Under the pieces are notes generated by a model. That model saw only the letters and a list, made by a program, of their open reading frames with translations. It did not search any database and had not been told where the DNA came from. This document shows, piece by piece, positions 360 through 16,010 of a stretch of 64,000 nt of DNA; position 1 is the first letter of the stretch; each line of letters starts with the position of its first letter. The stretch spans positions 1-64,000 of the forward strand of contig JAUYQP010000040.1 in the NCBI GenBank assembly GCA_030697205.1. Direction: 5' to 3'. The stretch comes from Mycobacteriales bacterium (lineage in GTDB: Bacteria > Actinomycetota > Actinomycetes > Mycobacteriales > SCTD01). The position numbers and the translations under genes are program-made.

Positions 360-2747
360 GTGACCGAGGTGGGCCTGACCCGGCTCGTCGGCGCCATCGC
401 CGCCCTGGGCATCGCCCTGCAGGCCGGCGTCGCGCTGGCCGTCGGTGGCCACGGCCCGGTCGCGGTCCTCGCGCTGGGCGGCGGGCCGGTGCCGGACGGC
501 TGGCCGCTGCTGCTCGCGATGCTCGTCCTCACCGTGGTGGGCGACCTCGTCGCGGTCCGCGTCCGTCACGGCGAGGAGTCCGAGGAGCTGACCCTCTTCG
601 AGGCCGCGGTCGTCGTCAGCGTCCTGCTGCTCCCGGCGCTCCCGGCGCTGCTCGTACCCGTGGTCGCGAGCGTCATCTGCTCGCTGATCCGCCGCCGCGA
701 CGCCGTGAAGACGGTCTTCAACAGCGCCAACCTGGCAGCAGCCACGGCCGTGCTGGTCCTCACCGTCCACCTCGTGTCGGGTCCGGGGCAGGGGCTGTCC
801 TGGCGGACCGTCCTCGCGCTCGTGATCGGGACGCTGGCCTTCACGACGGTCAATCTCGTCGCGCTCTCGCGGGTGCTCGGCATCGTCACCGGCGACGACC
901 CGTGGGCCGTGGTCCGCGACGGCGTCAGGCTGTCGGCGGTCATGGCCGTCGGCACCGTGGCCCTCGGCGGCACCGTCCTCACCGTGGCCGAGGCGGCGCC
1001 CGCGCTGCTGCCCTTCACGATCATGCCGGCGGCGGCGCTGACCTTCGCCTACCGCGCGGCGGCCCAGGAGTCGGAGGAGCGAGAGCGCTCCAGCCGACTG
1101 CTCGCGCTGTCCCAGGTCCTGGCCGGGCGACTCGACTCCGAGGCGCTGCTCGAGTCCTTCCTCGAGCTCTCGCGCCAGGCCTTCGGCGCCGACCTCGCCT
1201 TCGCCGTGCTCGACCCCGGCTCGGTGACACCCGGCCAGGCGGTGCCGACCACCGTCGCCAGCGACCGCGAGGACGGGGCCTTCCGTCGTACCTCCTCCGA
1301 GACCGAGCAGGTCCTGCTGCTGCGCGCGGCCCAGAGCGGCGCGTCCGTCATCGACGGCGAGCTGCCCGTCGGCTGGACGCGGGCGCTGCTCACGCCGCTC
1401 GAGGCCGAGGGCCGCCGCGTCGGCGCGCTCGTCCTCGTCACCCGTGACCGCCACCGCGCGCTCGGCGGGCGCGAGCTCACCCTGCTCACGCCGCTCGCGA
1501 GCGCCCTGGCCGTCGCGCTGCGCGGCGCCGCCCACCTGCACCGCCTGACCGAGGAGACGTCCAAGCTGCAGGCCGTCGTCGACTCGTCGTCCGACGGCAT
1601 CCTCGTGCTCGACGGCCAGGGGCTCGTGCAGCTGTGGAGCCCGGCCGTCGAGGCGCTCACCGGCAAGCCCGCGCTGTCCGCGCTGGGACGGCCGCTCGGC
1701 GCCCTGATGGTCACCACCGGTACCGACGGCGCGGCCAAGGACGCCTTCACCGCAGGCACGGCGGAGATCAGCCCCGACAGCCCGCAGGCGGTCGTCGAGC
1801 TGACCCTGCTGCGCGACGACGGCGAGCAGCGCGTCGTGCGCTGCGCCCATGCCGGCGTGTTCGAGGGTGACGAGCTCGTCCGCGACGTCGTGATCGTCCA
1901 CGACGTCACGCGCGAGCGGCAGGTCGAGCGCCTCAAGGCCGACTTCATCGCGACCGTCTCCCACGAGCTGCGCACCCCGGTCACCCCCATCAAGGGCTAC
2001 GCCGACCTGCTCCGCCGCCGGGGCGACCAGATGACGCCGGAGAAGCGGGCCGAGTGCCTCGAGGTCATCGGCGACCGCGCGTCCCACCTCGCCCGCCTCG
2101 TCGAGGACCTGCTGCTCGCGTCGCGGATCTCCGCGACCGAGGGCAGCACCCTGGCGCAGGTCGACATGGGTCGTGACGACCTCGTCGCCCTGACACGGCG
2201 CGCCTGCGGCGACTTCGGGATGGACGGCCCGCGCGTCACGACCCACCTCCCGGAGGGTCCTGTCGAGGTCAGCTGCGACCCGGTCCGCGTCATCCAGGTG
2301 CTGACCAACATGGTCGGCAACGCGCTGAAGTACTCCGCACCCGGCACGCCCGTCGACGTCCGCCTGTCCGTCGCCGACGGCCGCGCGATCGTGGAGGTCG
2401 AGGACCGCGGCCGCGGCATCCCCGCCGACCAGCTCGAGAAGGTCTTCGACAAGTTCCACCGCGTCGAGGACCCGATGCGCATGACCACCGGCGGCACCGG
2501 CCTCGGGCTCTACATCGCCCGCCAGCTGGCCTCCGCGATGGGCGGCACGCTCTCGTGCACGTCCACGCTCGGTGTCGGCTCGGTCTTCACCTTCAGCCTC
2601 GCGCTCGCCGGCACCGGCCCCGAGCCGACCCCGGCGCCGGTCCCGGTCGCCGCCCCGCTGCCCGAGGGTGCGCGCCACGTCCCCCGGCCGCGCCGCGCAC
2701 CTCCCTGGGCCGTCGCTCCGACACCCCCGGCCCCTCCTGCGCCGTAA
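360..2747 (+). CDS. Membrane sensor histidine kinase (GAF-PAS-HisKA-HATPase)
   Basis: A 795-residue protein. Residues 1 to about 230 hold several hydrophobic segments likely to be a multi-pass membrane sensor. A GAF-like region (about 240-400) and a PAS-like region (about 405-525, beginning near LQAVVDSSSDGILVLD) follow. The HisKA H-box is ATVSHELRTPVTPIKGY with the phospho-acceptor His near residue 534. HATPase motifs are N-box NMVGNALKYS, G1 DRGRGIPADQ and G2 TGGTGLGLYIARQ. The last 50 or so residues are Pro/Ala-rich and probably disordered. GTG at 360 is chosen because GAGAGG lies just upstream and a membrane segment begins soon after; an in-frame ATG at 267 exists but adds a non-hydrophobic leader. 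No response regulator is adjacent, so the partner is unknown. Confidence 0.9.
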   Translation: MTEVGLTRLVGAIAALGIALQAGVALAVGGHGPVAVLALGGGPVPDGWPLLLAMLVLTVVGDLVAVRVRHGEESEELTLFEAAVVVSVLLLPALPALLVPVVASVICSLIRRRDAVKTVFNSANLAAATAVLVLTVHLVSGPGQGLSWRTVLALVIGTLAFTTVNLVALSRVLGIVTGDDPWAVVRDGVRLSAVMAVGTVALGGTVLTVAEAAPALLPFTIMPAAALTFAYRAAAQESEERERSSRLLALSQVLAGRLDSEALLESFLELSRQAFGADLAFAVLDPGSVTPGQAVPTTVASDREDGAFRRTSSETEQVLLLRAAQSGASVIDGELPVGWTRALLTPLEAEGRRVGALVLVTRDRHRALGGRELTLLTPLASALAVALRGAAHLHRLTEETSKLQAVVDSSSDGILVLDGQGLVQLWSPAVEALTGKPALSALGRPLGALMVTTGTDGAAKDAFTAGTAEISPDSPQAVVELTLLRDDGEQRVVRCAHAGVFEGDELVRDVVIVHDVTRERQVERLKADFIATVSHELRTPVTPIKGYADLLRRRGDQMTPEKRAECLEVIGDRASHLARLVEDLLLASRISATEGSTLAQVDMGRDDLVALTRRACGDFGMDGPRVTTHLPEGPVEVSCDPVRVIQVLTNMVGNALKYSAPGTPVDVRLSVADGRAIVEVEDRGRGIPADQLEKVFDKFHRVEDPMRMTTGGTGLGLYIARQLASAMGGTLSCTSTLGVGSVFTFSLALAGTGPEPTPAPVPVAAPLPEGARHVPRPRRAPPWAVAPTPPAPPAP

Positions 2748-2844
2748 GACCGACCTGTCCCGCTAGGCTTGCGTCGGAAGCACGCGCGCCGCACCCGCCG
2801 CGCGGAACCGGGGCACGCCCCGTCACACCGACCTGGAGGACCCC

Positions 2845-2997
2845 GTGGCTGAGACCTACAACGGCTACTGCGTGAAGTGCAAGGAGAAGCGCGACTTCGA
2901 TGGTGAGGTCAAGGTCAGCGAGAGCGGCCGGCGCATGGCGCAGGGCCTGTGCCCGGTCTGCGGCACCAAGATGAACCGCATCCTCGGCAAGGCCTGA
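2845..2997 (+). CDS. DUF5679 zinc-ribbon protein
   Basis: A 50-residue protein starting at GTG with GGAGGA (2835-2840) five bases upstream. Two cysteine pairs, CVKC near residue 9 and CPVC near 36, form a probable single zinc ribbon. Length and sequence fit the DUF5679 family of small actinobacterial proteins of unknown function. It is followed after 20 bp by a perfect hairpin, so it probably ends a transcription unit. Function is not known. Confidence 0.85.
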   Translation: MAETYNGYCVKCKEKRDFDGEVKVSESGRRMAQGLCPVCGTKMNRILGKA

Positions 2998-3017
2998 CAC
3001 ACCGCACAGCTCGTACG

Positions 3018-3052
3018 ACGAGGCCGGCACCCACCACGGGTGCCGGCCTCGT
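3018..3052 (+). terminator. Hairpin terminator after DUF5679 gene
   Basis: A perfect 15-bp stem (acgaggccggcaccc with gggtgccggcctcgt) and a 5-base loop lie 20 bp after the DUF5679 stop. There is no U-tract, as is common for terminators in high-GC actinobacteria. Confidence 0.8.
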
Positions 3053-3102
3053 CGGCGTCTCAGGGCCTCCTCTGTGCGTCGCGCGCGGTCCAGGCTCACG
3101 AT

Positions 3103-3174
3103 GATCAACAGCACATCTGCACCTGAGGCCACGCTCGGCGCGGCCCTCCTCCGCGTGCAGATGTGCTGTCGATC
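3103..3174. repeat. 20-bp inverted repeat with 32-bp spacer
   Basis: gatcaacagcacatctgcac (3103-3122) and gtgcagatgtgctgtcgatc (3155-3174) are complementary at 19 of 20 positions. The repeat occupies the 336-bp gap between the DUF5679 gene and the E1-like gene, beyond the terminator hairpin. It is less GC-rich than its surroundings. It could be a large operator, a second structured RNA element or a relic of an inserted repeat. Nothing else recognisable lies in this gap except the ribosome site at 3320-3327. Confidence 0.75.
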
Positions 3175-3333
3175 TTGAGGGAAGACGGCGCGGCGCGGCC
3201 GGCAGCCCCTCGGGTCGGCCCGATCACTCGCGGCCGGCGACCGCCTGCGCGTCGCGTTGCCCACAGGCGCTGTGGACGAGCGAGGCCACGGTCGGCGCGT
3301 AGGTGCGAGCCTGCCGGGCAGGAGGTGCCACCG

Positions 3334-4416
3334 ATGACCCCAACCGCCCACGACGACGTCGACCCGCCGCTGTTCCTGGCCGGCCCACCGAGAGGGGTGC
3401 GCCGACCGGTGCTGCCTGCGGCGTACCGCCGGTTGTGGCGCGACCAGCAGACGCTCCAGCTCGGACGGGCGTCGGCGACCGCCATGGTGCTGAGCGGGCT
3501 CGACCCGGCGACCCGCGGTGCGCTCGCGCTGCTCGACGGGACCCGCGACGTCGCGGCGGTGCTGCGCGACGCGCGGCTGCTCGGCTGCGCCGACGACCGG
3601 GCGCTCGAGCTGCTGCAGGTGCTCGACGGGGCCGGGCTGCTCGACGACGCGGCCGACGTGGGGGCTCCGGTCCGGCGCGGCGAGCAGCAGCGGCTCGCGC
3701 CCGACCTCGCGTCCCTGCGGCTGGTGGGCAGCCCGGTGAGCGCGACGAACCGGGCACGGGCGAGCGTGCAGGTGCTCGGCGCCGCGCGGGTCGGGGCGGC
3801 GCTCGCGACCCTGCTCACCGCCGCCGGGGTCGAGCGGGTCGAGGTCGTCGACGCGGTCGCGACCGCACCGGAGGACACCGGGGCGGCGGGCCTCGGCCGC
3901 GACGACGTCGGCACCCGTCGCGACAGCGCGGCTGTCGCGCGGGCCGCCGCGCTCGGCGAGGCGGCAGCGCTGGGCGCGGGCGGCGGCACCGACCTGACCG
4001 TGCTCGCACCCACGACGCCGGCGGGGCTGGACGACATGGCGGCCGCACTGCCGGTGGGTGCGACGTACCTCGTGGCGGAGGTCCGTGACGCCGTCGGTGT
4101 CGTGGGCCCACTGGTGGTCGCCGGACGCAGCGCCTGCCTGCGCTGCCTCGACCTGCACCGCAGCGACCGCGACCCGGCCTGGCCGGTGCTCGCAGCGCAG
4201 CTGTCCGGGCCGTGGCGCGGGACGGCGGCCTGCGACGGCACGCTCGCCGTCGCGGTCGCCGCGCAAGCCTGCCTGCAGGCGCTGCTCGCCCTCGACGCGC
4301 TCGCCACCGGCGGCCCGCTGCCCGCGACCGCGAGCGGCACCCTCGAGCTGGCGCTGCCCGACTGGCGCTGGCGGCGCCGGAGCTGGCCGCTGCACCCCGA
4401 CTGCTCCTGCCACTGA
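3334..4416 (+). CDS. Degenerate ThiF/E1-like protein (TOMM-type leader-binding family)
   Basis: A 360-residue protein starting at ATG 3334 behind AGGAGGTG (3320-3327). Residues about 25-110 look like the small winged-helix region at the N-terminus of TOMM/ThiF-like precursor-binding proteins. The Rossmann part begins at VQVLGAARVGAALATLL, where the usual GxGxxG nucleotide loop has decayed, and the second strand VERVEVVDAV is kept. A Cys pair occurs in ACLRCLDLHRSDRDPAWP and a Cys/His end in HPDCSCH, as in E1-type zinc sites. The nucleotide loop suggests it binds a partner and does not adenylate. It lies 48 bp before the AarF kinase, same strand. No YcaO, dehydrogenase or precursor peptide is visible nearby, so a RiPP role is unsupported. 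Confidence 0.65.
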   Translation: MTPTAHDDVDPPLFLAGPPRGVRRPVLPAAYRRLWRDQQTLQLGRASATAMVLSGLDPATRGALALLDGTRDVAAVLRDARLLGCADDRALELLQVLDGAGLLDDAADVGAPVRRGEQQRLAPDLASLRLVGSPVSATNRARASVQVLGAARVGAALATLLTAAGVERVEVVDAVATAPEDTGAAGLGRDDVGTRRDSAAVARAAALGEAAALGAGGGTDLTVLAPTTPAGLDDMAAALPVGATYLVAEVRDAVGVVGPLVVAGRSACLRCLDLHRSDRDPAWPVLAAQLSGPWRGTAACDGTLAVAVAAQACLQALLALDALATGGPLPATASGTLELALPDWRWRRRSWPLHPDCSCH

Positions 4417-4464
4417 CCGGCACCCGGACGGGCGCCGCACGCCCCGGGGCCCCAGACTGCACAG

Positions 4465-5802
4465 GTGACCCCCAGCGACGAGCCGACCACTGCGGCGCGG
4501 GTGCCGCAGCGGGCCGTCGCCCGCGGTGCCCGGCTCGCGACGCTGCCGATCGGCGTCGCCGGCCGAGCAACCGTCGGGCTCGGCAAGCGGATCGGCGGGC
4601 GTCCGGCCGAGCTGGTCGCTGCGGAGCTGCGGCAGCGCACCGCGGAGCAGCTGTTCCAGGTGCTCGGGCAGCTCAAGGGCGGGGCGATGAAGCTCGGCCA
4701 GGCCATGAGCGTCTTCGAGGCCGCACTGCCCGAGGAGGTCGCGGCGCCCTACCGCGCGGCCCTGACCAAGCTGCAGGAGTCGGCGCCTCCGCTGCCGGCC
4801 GCGACCGTCCACGGGGTCCTCGCCACCCAGCTCGGCGAGGGCTGGCGCGAGCTGTTCGCGGAGTTCGACGACCGCCCGGCGGCTGCGGCGAGCATCGGCC
4901 AGGTCCACCGGGCGGTGTGGTCCGACGGGACACCGGTGGCCGTGAAGATCCAGTACCCCGGGGCCGGCAAGGCGCTCATGTCCGACCTGCGGCAGCTGTC
5001 GCGGCTGGCCCGCACCTTCGCGGTCTTCTCCCCCGGCCTCGACGTCAAGCCGCTGCTCAAGGAGCTGCAGTCCCGGGTGGCCGAGGAGCTCGACTACCGC
5101 CTCGAGGCCGAGAGCCAGCGGACCTTCGCCGAGGCCTACGACGGCGACCCCGAGATCCGCGTCCCCCGGGTCGTCGCCGACGCCGACCAGGTCCTCGTGA
5201 CGGAGTGGATCGAGGGCATGCCGCTGTCACACATCATCCGCGAGGGCACCCCGGAGCAGCGCGACCGCGCCTCTTCACTGCTCGCGCGCTTCCTCTTCAG
5301 CGGGCCGGTCCTCGCCGGGCTGCTCCACGCCGACCCGCACCCCGGCAACTTCCGGCTGCTGCCCGACGGCCGGCTCGGCGTCATCGACTTCGGCGCGGTC
5401 GACCGGCTGCCCGACGGCGCGCCCGAGCCGATCGGCCGCATCACCCGCCTCGCGCTCGCCGGCGACGCGCAGGGCGTGCTGGACGCGCTGCGCGCCGAGG
5501 GCTTCGTCAAGGACTCGGTGCAGCTCGACGCGCAGGCGCTGCTCGACTACCTGCTGCCGCTGCTCGAGCCGGTCGCCGACGAGACCTTCCGCTTCACCCG
5601 CCCGTGGCTGCGCGCCCAGGCACTGCGCCTCGGCGACCCCCGCTCACCGGCCGCCCAGCTCGGCAGGCAGCTCAACCTGCCCCCGGCGTACCTCCTGCTG
5701 CACCGCGTCACCCTCGGCACCATCGGGGTGCTGTGCCAGCTCGACGGCGAGGCCGCCTACCGCGCGGAGATGCAGCGCTGGCAGCCCGGCTTCGCCGACT
5801 GA
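4465..5802 (+). CDS. AarF/ABC1/UbiB-family atypical kinase
   Basis: A 445-residue protein. Family hallmarks are visible: the KxGQ-type segment KGGAMKLGQAMSVFE (about 70-84), an Ala-rich loop in AAAASIGQVHRA, the VAIK-like VAVKIQYPG, catalytic HADPHPGNF and metal-binding VIDFGAVDRLP. ABC1 kinases support quinone or lipid metabolism in other organisms; the substrate here is not determinable. The start is GTG 4465. In M. tuberculosis the equivalent gene (Rv3197) lies next to whiB7; here about 7 kb of extra genes separates the two. Confidence 0.88.
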   Translation: MTPSDEPTTAARVPQRAVARGARLATLPIGVAGRATVGLGKRIGGRPAELVAAELRQRTAEQLFQVLGQLKGGAMKLGQAMSVFEAALPEEVAAPYRAALTKLQESAPPLPAATVHGVLATQLGEGWRELFAEFDDRPAAAASIGQVHRAVWSDGTPVAVKIQYPGAGKALMSDLRQLSRLARTFAVFSPGLDVKPLLKELQSRVAEELDYRLEAESQRTFAEAYDGDPEIRVPRVVADADQVLVTEWIEGMPLSHIIREGTPEQRDRASSLLARFLFSGPVLAGLLHADPHPGNFRLLPDGRLGVIDFGAVDRLPDGAPEPIGRITRLALAGDAQGVLDALRAEGFVKDSVQLDAQALLDYLLPLLEPVADETFRFTRPWLRAQALRLGDPRSPAAQLGRQLNLPPAYLLLHRVTLGTIGVLCQLDGEAAYRAEMQRWQPGFAD

Positions 5803-11037: not shown

Positions 11038-12471
11038 TCAGGTGACCCCGAGGTAGAGGAAGCCGTAGGCCTCGTCGCGGAACGGGATGCCGGCCGCGGT
11101 GAGGGCGGCGTCCCAGTCGCCCTCGACACCGGGCACGGCGCCCTGCATGCCGTGGTCGGCCGTCAGCAGGATCGTCACGTCGTCGGTGAGTCCGCGCTCG
11201 TCGAGCAGGTCGAGCCAGACCGACAAGCGCCGGTCGGCGTCACGCAGCGCGGCGCGGGCGATCGGCGAGCCAGGGCCGCCGGCGTGGTGGCCGGAGTCGG
11301 TGAGGGTGGTGTTCCACCAGGTGAGGCGCGGCGGCACGTCCTCGCGCCACAGGCCGAGCACCTGCTCGAGGCCGCTCGCGTCGACCTGGGTCGCCCAGGT
11401 GTAGTCGGCGTTGGCCGCGACGAACTCCTGGGTCGCGTGCGGGTCCTGCACGGCCGGCGGCAGCGAGGTGATGAGCGAGCCGGTCCCGCTGCCGGTCATC
11501 GACCGGATGAGCTCGAAGGTCGAGTACGACGCTCCGCGGTCCACCGGGTCGTTCACGCAGGCTGACGACGTCCCGGCAGGCAACCGCTCGAAGACGGTCC
11601 GCACCCCGGGGCGCAGCCACTGCATCGACAGGTGCCAGGTCGAGGACGCGTTGGGCACGACCTGCTCGCCGCTCGCCCTGTCGTAGAAGGCGTTGTTGAC
11701 GATGCCGTGCCGACCCGGGCCGACCCCGGTGAGCGCGCAGGTGTGGTTGACCAGGGTGACCGAGGGGAACTCCGCCACCGCGCCACCGCGCAGGGCGCAG
11801 CCACGCGAGAGCAGCCGCGCGACGCCGGGCAGCTCGCCGCTCTGCCCGAGCGCGATGACCTCCGCCGACGGGGCGCCGTCCCACAGCAGTCCGACCACGT
11901 GGCGCCCGCCCGGGGTGACGTGCGCGATCGGAGCGCCGTCCATCCCGTCGTACGACCCTCCTGCGAGGTGGGCCAGGGTCGCGCCGACGTCGACGGTGCG
12001 GCAGACGTCGTCGACGACGCCGCGCGCGGTGACGCCGGCGCCCGAGAGCAGCAGGGGAGCGCGCGACTGCAGGCCGTTGAGCGAGCCGTGCTCACCGAGG
12101 TGACCGCCCTGCGCGGGCCAGTGGTGCTCACCGGTGTGCACGACGCAGAGGTCCGGGGCGCGTTCCTCGGCGAACAGCGAGTGCAGGCGCGCGGCGGCGA
12201 AGGGATAGCCGGTGTCGGAGAAGGGATCGGTGTCGGCGACGGGGTCGCGGCCGGCGAGGACCTCGGCGCGGCCGTCGGGGTGCAAGGCGCTGTGGCCGCG
12301 GGAGTCCGCGACGTGGACGAGGCCGCGCTCGAGCCAGCAGACGAGGTCGACGACGTGGGCGAGCGCCGGGTCGAGGAGCACGTCCATCGCCCGGTCGCGC
12401 AGCGTCGGCAGGTGCGTGCCGGACGACCCCGGCGAGGTGGTGGCGGACAGGTCGCGCGACGGGAGCGGCAC
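11038..12471 (-). CDS. Alkaline-phosphatase-superfamily phosphodiesterase/pyrophosphatase, motifs in permuted order
   Basis: A 477-residue cytoplasmic protein starting at GTG 12471; the upstream open frame continues but only into the tandem repeat. Residues 192-477 have the N-terminal part of a nucleotide pyrophosphatase/phosphodiesterase: metal Asp198 in GLLWDGAPSA, nucleophile Thr239 in FPSVTLVNHT, TDSGHH (391-396) and LLTADHGM (436-442). The usual C-terminal part, with the last metal His and the VDxxPTL helix, is not at the C-terminus. A matching segment lies first instead: GGHLGEHGSL (122-131) and TVDVGATLAHLAGG (159-172). The enzyme therefore looks circularly permuted or partly duplicated. 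Substrate unknown. Confidence 0.8.
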   Translation of the reverse strand: MPLPSRDLSATTSPGSSGTHLPTLRDRAMDVLLDPALAHVVDLVCWLERGLVHVADSRGHSALHPDGRAEVLAGRDPVADTDPFSDTGYPFAAARLHSLFAEERAPDLCVVHTGEHHWPAQGGHLGEHGSLNGLQSRAPLLLSGAGVTARGVVDDVCRTVDVGATLAHLAGGSYDGMDGAPIAHVTPGGRHVVGLLWDGAPSAEVIALGQSGELPGVARLLSRGCALRGGAVAEFPSVTLVNHTCALTGVGPGRHGIVNNAFYDRASGEQVVPNASSTWHLSMQWLRPGVRTVFERLPAGTSSACVNDPVDRGASYSTFELIRSMTGSGTGSLITSLPPAVQDPHATQEFVAANADYTWATQVDASGLEQVLGLWREDVPPRLTWWNTTLTDSGHHAGGPGSPIARAALRDADRRLSVWLDLLDERGLTDDVTILLTADHGMQGAVPGVEGDWDAALTAAGIPFRDEAYGFLYLGVT

Positions 12472-12510
12472 CCGCCCAGCGTAGGACGCACCGCGTCGTC
12501 CTCCAGCGCA

Positions 12511-12940: not shown

Positions 12941-13258
12941 TCATGCGGCCGTGACGTCGTAGCTGTCCTTGCGCGGACGCCCGCGGGGGCGCTTGCGCGC
13001 GACGACGACGCCGCTCACGACGAGCTGCCCGCCCCAGACGCCCCAGGGCTCGCGGCGCTCGAGGGCACCGGCGAGGCAGGCCTCGCGCAGCGGGCAGGGG
13101 ACGCAGAGGGCCTTGGCGGCCTCGACGTCGGCGGGGGACTCGGCGAACCACAGGTCCGGGTCCTCCGTCCAGCACGGCAGGGTGCTGGCGGAGTCCAGAA
13201 CGCTGTCGGGCTCGAGGTCGCTGTCGTCGACCGAGAGGTCGTGGGTGAGGGCGAGCAT
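12941..13258 (-). CDS. whiB7: Transcription factor WhiB7
   Basis: A 105-residue Fe-S regulator. Four cluster cysteines are at 29, 52, 55 and 61 (LPCW, CVPC, EAC), the Wbl turn GVWGG is at 73-77, and an AT-hook RPRGRPRK at 90-97. The AT-hook is diagnostic for WhiB7, which binds SigA at promoters with AT-rich DNA just upstream of the -35 and turns on intrinsic antibiotic-resistance genes. Its neighbour uvrD2 and the long leader with an attenuator and upstream ORF agree with this. Its stop overlaps a possible start of the small downstream gene. Confidence 0.95.
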   Translation of the reverse strand: MLALTHDLSVDDSDLEPDSVLDSASTLPCWTEDPDLWFAESPADVEAAKALCVPCPLREACLAGALERREPWGVWGGQLVVSGVVVARKRPRGRPRKDSYDVTAA

Positions 13259-13320
13259 CGCGGTGTCACCTCCTCGTGACGGGCGTGCGGGTGGGTCGGT
13301 GGTGCCGGACGGGTGGGTCG

Positions 13321-13365
13321 GAGAAACAACAAAGGCCGCGGATCCCTGGTCGGGTTCCGCGGCCT
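13321..13365 (-). terminator. Intrinsic attenuator in the whiB7 leader
   Basis: On the minus strand a 10-bp perfect stem (aggccgcgga, 13365-13356, with tccgcggcct, 13342-13333) is followed directly by ttgttgtttctc, one of the few U-rich runs in this GC-rich window. It lies 62 bp before the whiB7 start and after the upstream ORF. Premature termination here, relieved when ribosomes stall on the upstream ORF, is the known mode of whiB7 control. A smaller hairpin (ggtctg/cagacc, 13396-13380) at the upstream-ORF stop could be the competing structure. Confidence 0.85.
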
Positions 13366-13389
13366 CGAGGCTGCTGGTCGGTCTGGGTC

Positions 13390-13659
13390 TCAGACCGGTC
13401 CACCTCGAGGAGGGGAACCCGGGACGTACGCCTGGAGGGCGGCATCCTGAGCGGTGCGGTTGGCGAAGGTCATGCCGGCGGTGATGCCAGCGGCCTTGCG
13501 GGCCGTGCTGCTGGCCGTGCTGCTGGCCGCGGGCAGACCGGTGCCGTGCACGGAGCCGAAGTCGGGCGCCGTGACGGACTGCCGCTCCATCGCGAGAGCG
13601 CCGGCGAGGCAGGTCCCGGAGACGCGGGTGGCCGTGCGCGAGGTCAGAGTGCTGATCAT
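13390..13659 (-). CDS. Upstream ORF in the whiB7 leader
   Basis: An 89-codon ORF starting at ATG 13659 with an excellent site, AAGGAGGT, seven bases upstream. It starts about 45 bp after the predicted transcription start and ends 25 bp before the attenuator stem. The peptide (MISTLTSRTATRVSGTCLAG at the N-terminus) is Ala/Thr/Ser-rich and resembles no family I know. Position and ribosome site indicate a sensing leader peptide whose translation controls read-through into whiB7. It is longer than I would expect for a leader peptide, so an additional role for the product cannot be excluded. Confidence 0.65.
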   Translation of the reverse strand: MISTLTSRTATRVSGTCLAGALAMERQSVTAPDFGSVHGTGLPAASSTASSTARKAAGITAGMTFANRTAQDAALQAYVPGSPPRGGPV

Positions 13660-13710
13660 CAGGGCCACCTCCTTGTCTGGGCGCCGGCGAGCGCCGGTCG
13701 TGTGAGGGGG

Positions 13711-13749
13711 AGGTTAGAGAGGCCTGCGCAAGCGCGCAAGCGAATTAAT
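13711..13749 (-). promoter_or_regulatory. WhiB7-type autoregulated promoter of whiB7
   Basis: On the minus strand an AT-rich block attaatt (13749-13743) lies 3 bp upstream of a -35-like TTGCGC (13739-13734). A 17-bp spacer leads to a -10-like TAACCT (13716-13711). AT-rich DNA placed just before the -35 is the known recognition feature of WhiB7-SigA promoters. Transcription should begin near 13705, giving a leader of about 450 nt. Confidence 0.75.
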
Positions 13750-13803
13750 CCGGGCGTTGTCGAACTGTCATCCGGCCGGGCGATGTGAGCTGCGGGGCGC
13801 TGG

Positions 13804-15885
13804 TCAGCCCGGGGCGATGCCGGAGACCAGCGCGAGCACGTCGTCGCCGAACTTGTCGAGCTTGGCCTGCCCGATGCCGGGGATCTTCACCAGCGCCGCG
13901 ACCGAGCCGGGCCGCTGCTCGGCGATGGCGGTCAGCGTCGCGTCGGTGAAGACGCAGTAGGCAGGCTGGCCGAGCTCCTTGGCCCGCCCGGCGCGCCAGT
14001 CGCGCAGGGCCTCGAACAGCACCTCGTCGCGGTCGGCGGGGCAGGTCGCGCAGCGCCCGAGCTTGCGGTCGACGGCAGCCATCAGCGCGGTGCCGCAGAC
14101 CCGGCAGGCCACCGGGCCTGAGCGCTCGCGGCGGGGCGCCTTGGGACCGGCGGGGCTGCTCGCGGAGCGCGCGACACCGGCGTGCAGCCCGGCGAGGAAC
14201 CGCGACGGCTGGCGGTTGCCGCGCCCGCCGGGCGAGCGCGACAGCGCCCACGACAGCTGCAGGTGCTCGCGCGCGCGGGTGACCCCGACGTAGAGCAGCC
14301 GGCGCTCCTCCTCGACCTGCTCGGGAGTGTCGGCGTGGACGAGCGGCATCGTCCCGTCGACCAGCCCGACGAGGAAGACCGCGTCCCACTCGAGGCCCTT
14401 CGCGGCATGCAGCGACGCGAGCGTGACGCCCTCGACAGTCGGTGCGTGCTGGGCCGAGGCGCGCTCGTCGAGCTCGACGACGAGGTCGCGCACGGTCAGG
14501 GCCGGGTCGGCGGTGCCGAGGTCGACGGCGAGGCGGTGCAGCGCGGCGAGGGACTCCCACCGCTCCCGGGTCGCGCCCGACCCGGCGGGCGGCGCATCGA
14601 CCCGCCACGACATGCCGGCGCCCAGGACGTCGGCGACGAGCGCGCCGAGTGACTCGGGGGCGTCGAGGTCGGCGGCCCGGCCTGCCCCGCGCAGGTGCAC
14701 GATCGCCTCGCGCACCTCGGGCCGGTCGAAGAACCGCTCCCCGCCCCTGACGAGGTAGGGCACACCCGCGTCGGACAGCGCGGCTTCGTAGGCCGCGGAC
14801 TGCGCGTTGACGCGGTAGAGGATCGCGATCTCGCTGGCGGAGGTGCCTGCCGCGATGAGCTCGGTGCACCGCTTCGCCACCAGCGAGGCCTCGGCCGGCT
14901 CGTCGTCGACCTCGACGAAGCGCGGCTCCGGCCCCGCCGGTCGCTGCGCGACGAGCTCCAGGGTCACGGCGCTGCGCGGCGCCTTGGAGATGACGCCGTT
15001 GGCGAGCCCCACGACCTGCGGTGTCGAGCGGTAGTCCCGCACCAGCCGCACCTCGGTCGCCTCGGGGAACCGCTGGCGGAAGCCCAGGAGGTACGACGGG
15101 GACGCGCCCGTGAAGGAGTAGATCGTCTGGTGGGCGTCGCCCACGACGCACAGGTCGTCGCGGCCGCCGAGCCAGGCGTCGAGCAGCCGCTGCTGCAGTG
15201 GGGTGACGTCCTGGTACTCGTCGACGACGAAGGAGCGGTAGCGCGACCGGAACTCCTCCGCGACGTCGCGGTGCTCCTCGAGCACGGCGGCCGTGAGCAG
15301 CAGCAGGTCGTCGAAGTCGGCGAGCCCCTGCTTCTCCTTGAGGTCGGCGAAGGCGCGGTAGACCGCGGCGGTCTGGCCCGGGTCGAAGGGCGGCTCGCGG
15401 CGCGCGACCTCGGCGGCCTTGACGTAGTCCTCCGGGCCGACCAGGGACGCGGCCGCCCACTGGACCTCCGACAGCAGGTCGCGCAGCTCGGTGGTGCTCG
15501 GCCGCAGGCCGGTGCGGGCGGCGGCGTTGGCGACCAGCCCGAACGGGTTGGACAGAAGCGTGGGCGGTGCCCCGCCGACGACCTTGGGCCAGAAGTAGCC
15601 GAGCTGCTTGAGGGCGGCGGCGTGGAAGGTGCGCGCCTGCACGCCTCCGACGCCGAGCTGGCGCAGCCGGGTGCGCATCTCCCCCGCCGCCCGCGCGGTG
15701 AAGGTGACCGCCAGCATCGAGCCGGGCGGCACGGCGCCGGTGAGCGTCGCGTAGGCCGCCCGGTGGGTGATCGTGCGGGTCTTGCCGGTGCCGGCCCCGG
15801 CGAGGATGACGACCGGCCCGCTGACCGCCGAGGCGGCCTCGCGCTGCTCGGGGTCGAGCGCGGCGAGCACGGCCTCCGGTCCCAT
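13804..15885 (-). CDS. uvrD2: ATP-dependent DNA helicase UvrD2 (HRDC, tetra-Cys)
   Basis: A 693-residue SF1A helicase, started at ATG 15885 (MGPEAVLAALDPEQREA). Motifs: Walker A AGAGTGKT, Walker B with VVDEYQD, QTIYSF region, VRDYRSTPQVV, and motif V/VI LHAAKGLEWDAVFLVG and YVGVTRAREHL. The C-terminus has the tetracysteine element CRVC/CATC (near residues 600 and 620) and an HRDC domain ending PGIGQAKLDKFGDDVLALV, the combination found in mycobacterial UvrD2. It unwinds 3'-tailed duplex in DNA repair. It is divergent from mrx1 and lies just upstream of the whiB7 leader, on the same strand. Confidence 0.95.
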   Translation of the reverse strand: MGPEAVLAALDPEQREAASAVSGPVVILAGAGTGKTRTITHRAAYATLTGAVPPGSMLAVTFTARAAGEMRTRLRQLGVGGVQARTFHAAALKQLGYFWPKVVGGAPPTLLSNPFGLVANAAARTGLRPSTTELRDLLSEVQWAAASLVGPEDYVKAAEVARREPPFDPGQTAAVYRAFADLKEKQGLADFDDLLLLTAAVLEEHRDVAEEFRSRYRSFVVDEYQDVTPLQQRLLDAWLGGRDDLCVVGDAHQTIYSFTGASPSYLLGFRQRFPEATEVRLVRDYRSTPQVVGLANGVISKAPRSAVTLELVAQRPAGPEPRFVEVDDEPAEASLVAKRCTELIAAGTSASEIAILYRVNAQSAAYEAALSDAGVPYLVRGGERFFDRPEVREAIVHLRGAGRAADLDAPESLGALVADVLGAGMSWRVDAPPAGSGATRERWESLAALHRLAVDLGTADPALTVRDLVVELDERASAQHAPTVEGVTLASLHAAKGLEWDAVFLVGLVDGTMPLVHADTPEQVEEERRLLYVGVTRAREHLQLSWALSRSPGGRGNRQPSRFLAGLHAGVARSASSPAGPKAPRRERSGPVACRVCGTALMAAVDRKLGRCATCPADRDEVLFEALRDWRAGRAKELGQPAYCVFTDATLTAIAEQRPGSVAALVKIPGIGQAKLDKFGDDVLALVSGIAPG

Positions 15886-16010
15886 CGGACCAGTCTCCCA
15901 GACCGCTGCGACAGGCCGTGTGGCCCTGGGGACGAACGGGACGGGAAGCACCGGCGGAAAGCGGGCGTTGCAGCCCTCGACGACCCGTGACGACGAGAGG
16001 ACCCCTCCCT

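Follow-up and report, generated by a model that had tools for sequence, protein, structure and literature searches.

A member of the alkaline phosphatase superfamily in Actinomycetota with a probable natural circular permutation

The alkaline phosphatase superfamily is a standard system for studies of catalytic promiscuity and evolution. Within it, the NPP family and PafA use a threonine nucleophile and two divalent metals held by Asp and His ligands. The NPP family (PF01663; Xac NPP 2gsn/7n1s and ENPP1-7) has the same core as residues 188-477 of a 477-residue protein encoded in the 64,000-nucleotide stretch of DNA analysed here (the window), and the same nucleophile and ligand motifs; unlike these enzymes, the protein from the window has the C-terminal third of the fold first. 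Its nearest sequence relatives in the PDB are the ENPPs, PafA, PhnA and Xac NPP. PafA (NF042991) and PhnA (phosphonoacetate hydrolase, TIGR02335) are the top-scoring curated relatives of its nucleophile segment, the only part that the NCBIfam models match, and its scores of 39.3 and 35.9 bits lie far below their respective cut-offs of 650 and 407.55 bits. With a probability of roughly 0.94, we conclude that the protein belongs to the NPP/PhnA/PafA branch of the superfamily and has undergone a natural circular permutation.

The gene, its modules and its putative active site

The open reading frame occupies positions 11041..12471 of the minus strand, with a GTG start and a stop codon at 11038-11040, as assigned from the translation, full-length orthologues and the AlphaFold2 model; the plus strand of 11038-12471 is not the gene, and all features described below lie on the minus strand. 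Residues 21-187 (module B, 11911..12411) correspond to the C-terminal third of the canonical fold, which is N-terminal here, and contain a cap meander, His128 and a VDVAPTLA-type helix. The cap meander (residues 41-75, 12247..12351) comprises four β strands in the AlphaFold2 model and aligns with the segment GVDLAAW...VRR of canonical relatives, where it comes after the DHG half. Residues 188-477 (module A, 11041..11910) form the N-terminal two thirds of the canonical NPP/PafA/PhnA-type core. Between the modules, a linker (residues 172-190, 11902..11958) joins the old C and N termini, that is, it lies between the canonical last helix and first strand. The HG motif and the VDVAPT helix thus stand before the nucleophile half rather than in the canonical order. 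This difference is one of connectivity only, and we class the protein as a permuted variant and not as a standard member.

The initial annotation had assigned individual motifs to numbered residues, and translation bears out each of them, including His128, Asp198, Thr239, TDSGHH, TADHG and the end of the chain at 477. His128 (12088-12090), the displaced metal-site histidine, lies within GGHLGEHGS (residues 122-130, 12082..12108), a segment invariant in 48 sequences, and aligns with the histidine of DHGSL in canonical relatives. The VDVGATLAHLAG segment (residues 160-171, 11959..11994), which contains a helix at 160-169 in the AlphaFold2 model, is the last core helix of the canonical fold and falls within the PDB profile matches described below. 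In module A, Asp198 (11878..11880) is a metal ligand by homology and belongs to the DG motif of the Pfam Phosphodiest match, and Thr239 (11755..11757), the nucleophile by homology, aligns with ENPP3 PTKTFPNH; its context, EFPSVTLVNHT, has the P-S/T-x-T nucleophile motif after the DG strand. The remaining ligands by homology are Asp392 and His396 (11284..11298) of TDSGHH (residues 391-396), aligned with a segment of ENPP6 and ENPP3, and Asp439-His440 (11152..11157) of TADHG (residues 437-441), aligned with ENPP ADHGM. By alignment, then, a full two-metal ligand set appears to be present, in which His128 of the N-terminal module would complete a site formed with Asp198, Asp392/His396 and Asp439/His440 of the C-terminal module. 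Metal geometry and catalysis would follow those of the relatives, with Thr239 attacking the phosphorus ester in the manner of NPP or PafA, and the substrate would be a phosphodiester or phosphomonoester. No signal peptide was seen in the 477-residue protein, which suggests that the enzyme is cytosolic.

Asp198, Thr239, Asp392, His396, Asp439, His440 and His128 are invariant in all 48 sequences compared. A catalytically dead permuted fold, or one that has a binding role and does not act on phosphoesters, would be compatible with the permutation itself, but the invariance of all seven ligand and nucleophile positions in sequences down to about 52% identity makes this reading unlikely.

Module order and predicted fold

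For a rotation test, the family profile was cut at residue 188 and compared by hhalign with canonical-order relatives from the same phylum, found by profile searches (L177, L183, L184 and L193-L196), in which the same pieces are directly seen in the order A-B. The unrotated profile gave two matches in swapped order, 202-465 to 17-296 (E 8.8e-18) and 36-189 to 357-499 (E 7e-11), whereas the profile rotated at 188 gave one match of 424 columns (26% identity, score 215, E 1.8e-28), the join lying in the loop that connects FLYL to the helix preceding the cap meander. Against a second canonical group (L001, from the same genome, L027 and L028), two unrotated matches with scores of 89.7 and 52.0 became one with a score of 122.6 (E 2.8e-16). 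Two swapped matches that merge upon rotation at a single point, the signature of a permutation, were therefore obtained with two canonical groups.

Searches of the PDB gave a similar picture. With phmmer, residues 186-277 and 380-446 matched residues 15-106 and 283-348 of the PafA chain 5tj3, and a third stretch, 120-185, matched 467-532 in swapped order at 0.2 bits, which is not significant alone. When the single sequence was rotated, its phmmer matches to the PDB stayed in separate pieces; joining them needed the profile. The profile of module B matched only C-terminal segments of alkaline phosphatase superfamily enzymes, namely sulfatases, LTA synthase and iPGM, the best being 7p24 at 3e-4.

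An AlphaFold2 model of the full chain, built from 48 sequences, is one compact fold with a pLDDT of 91.3 and a pTM of 0.92. Folded alone, module B yielded a poor model (pLDDT 71.5), in which the block around HGS had a pLDDT of 43-46 as against 80-96 in the full chain. Module B is thus modelled with confidence only together with module A, which suggests that it depends on A and speaks against a separate domain for the HGS region, the outcome that the initial annotation had said would refute its proposal. In a VIA-align comparison, module A aligned with residues 44-295 of Xac NPP 7n1s (Z 18.0, 2.6 Å over 241 residues), leaving the C-terminal part of that 383-residue chain unaligned. The alkaline phosphatase core fold is accordingly recognized in residues 188-477 by alignment to NPPs (Z ~18), the rest being placed by sequence profile only. 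Structure searches with the full model aligned 188-477 only, because the aligners are sequential, and are silent for or against permutation; a Foldseek search with the poor model of module B alone returned no significant fold match.

The rotation test, the single confident fold and the restriction of module B profile matches to C-terminal segments together lead us to circular permutation, which was also the first option of the initial annotation. We propose that a canonical A-B chain was opened within a single loop. The strand leading into this loop, GFLYLG, which comes after the DHG half, would be the new C terminus, and the helix on the other side of the loop, which precedes the cap meander, the new N terminus; linker 172-190 would join the former termini. 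Modules A and B would fold into one domain, and the permutation would alter chain connectivity only.

A domain-swapped dimer, with module B of one subunit completing the active site of module A in another, would be compatible with a monomer prediction and with a B-A linker of about 19 residues, but the confident prediction of the monomer as a compact single fold (pTM 0.92) makes such an arrangement improbable. Sulfatases carry DHG shortly before GEHG, and the idea that TGEHHW is a sulfatase-like DHG remnant was rejected, as the alignment with canonical relatives places it away from DHG. The least probable reading by our estimate, put forward in the initial annotation as its alternative, is an internal duplication in which residues 21-187 are a decayed second metal-binding half (DHG becoming TGEHHW) beside a truncated, separate catalytic half: TGEHHW...GEHG superficially resembles a degenerate form of the sulfatase DHG...GEHG in the 7p24 alignment, but TGEHHW aligns with the canonical pre-HGS strand (SATPGYTF-like sequence) and not with DHG, an HGS piece is missing from A and a nucleophile half from B, the two together making exactly one full set, module B folds poorly alone, and the single end-to-end alignment after rotation contradicts a duplication.

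Conservation, neighbourhood and related architectures

Homologues with the same order, which the initial annotation had proposed to seek, are widespread. Of the 24 genomes of the same family, 22 carry a full-length or near-full-length orthologue (68-77% identity); one more orthologue was found in the sampled order, many occur across the class at about 48-63% identity, including in single-contig genomes, and eight others lie elsewhere in the phylum (L159-L166). The full-length orthologues keep the permuted order B-A, and their recurrence across family and class, single-contig genomes included, excludes chance or assembly error. Named hosts include Frankia, Pseudofrankia, Parafrankia, Kineosporia, Phycicoccus, Pedococcus and Nocardioides. 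One orthologue (L104) sits on contig CAJCIY010000221.1, which is labelled Candidatus Melainabacteria and is probably a misbinned actinobacterial contig. Among orthologues, differences are about twice as frequent at third codon positions as at either of the other two; as judged from the sequences, the gene is under purifying selection.

The upstream neighbour is also conserved. It encodes a WhiB-family regulator (12941..13258; Pfam Whib, E 5.1e-15 in a Pfam run on the window's neighbours), and whiB and uvrD2 precede the gene on the same strand in nearly all loci with long enough DNA, often with an ABC1-kinase gene beyond the permuted-enzyme gene. In the window the whiB and uvrD2 region spans 12941-15951 on the minus strand and presumably resembles the whiB7-uvrD2 region of mycobacteria. 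Conservation across the phylum and the nearly constant neighbourhood indicate an old, vertically inherited gene. A −10-like element, TACGCT (12478..12483), lies 6 bases before the GTG start, and TANGCT or a close variant recurs at similar spacing before GTG in most of the 12 orthologues inspected while the surrounding bases vary, which suggests a leaderless transcript.

A second permuted family of about 560-700 residues is found in other actinobacterial families (L170, L171, L172 and L174-L182). In these L170-type proteins the HG/VDVAPT segment likewise precedes the nucleophile; in L171, positions 447-525 of the NCBIfam PhoY32 model match residues 68-138, and positions 291-443 of the PafA model match 379-520. 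The cap region appears to stay C-terminal in the L170 type, placing its cut point elsewhere than in the family of the window.

We also observed four secreted giant proteins of 1164-1343 residues with the order B1-A1-B2-A2, encoded at 522-4349 (L186) and 1074-4616 (L187) on the plus strand and at 1258-5286 (L188) and 1508-4999 (L189) on the minus strand of their respective loci. In each, an entire canonical domain appears to occupy the position of linker 172-190. By eye, both domains have complete ligand motifs, and the middle part, A1-B2, corresponds end to end to one canonical L001-type domain (E 1.1e-49). Against the permuted family, B1 scores 47-62 bits and B2 6-15, and A2 scores 101-137 bits and A1 42-62. 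A tree built from the A modules places A2 of the giants with the permuted family (94/90) and A1 with L001, L027 and L028 (100/98); it puts all permuted sequences together on one side, a split that has moderate support (86/86). The reading we favour from these sequence comparisons is that the giants carry a canonical domain nested between the halves of a permuted one. Close to their inner domain is L001 itself (685-2985; contig C41 of the same genome), a secreted paralogue of canonical order. A single history for all these forms, in which one ancient permutation arose in Actinomycetota and was retained, the cut point later shifted in the L170 type, and giants of the form B1-[A1-B2]-A2 preserve a tandem stage on the way from a fold to its permuted form, is possible but rather doubtful.

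Comparison with known systems

A lasting permutation across a phylum means that the termini of the fold can be moved into a loop next to its active-site half. The same permutation accounts for the fact that Pfam annotates just half of each such protein: Phosphodiest covers residues 192-444 only, or positions 1-223 of its 342, and the match ends there because the C-terminal third comes first. With canonical, permuted and nested forms in one phylum, the route of permutation through tandem duplication and trimming is directly testable.

Circular permutation is known to occur naturally in proteins. In open-access PMC text we found no earlier report of one in the alkaline phosphatase superfamily; phosphonoacetate hydrolase is listed as a fold outlier there owing to an insertion, not a permutation (PMC3779223). 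Among SGNH hydrolases, the AlgX/AlgJ and DHHW families have permuted catalytic blocks, H-S-G-N as against S-G-N-H (PMC9487903). That is the same kind of event in an unrelated superfamily, and is to the permuted phosphatase fold an analogy only. Within the superfamily, PafA and PhnA are of canonical order, unlike the permuted enzyme. The canonical-order actinobacterial relatives likewise match the PafA and PhnA models, and every segment of L177, L183, L184 and L193-L196 aligns with the rotated permuted profile, the difference between the two lying in the order of the modules, A-B in these relatives and B-A in the enzyme described here.
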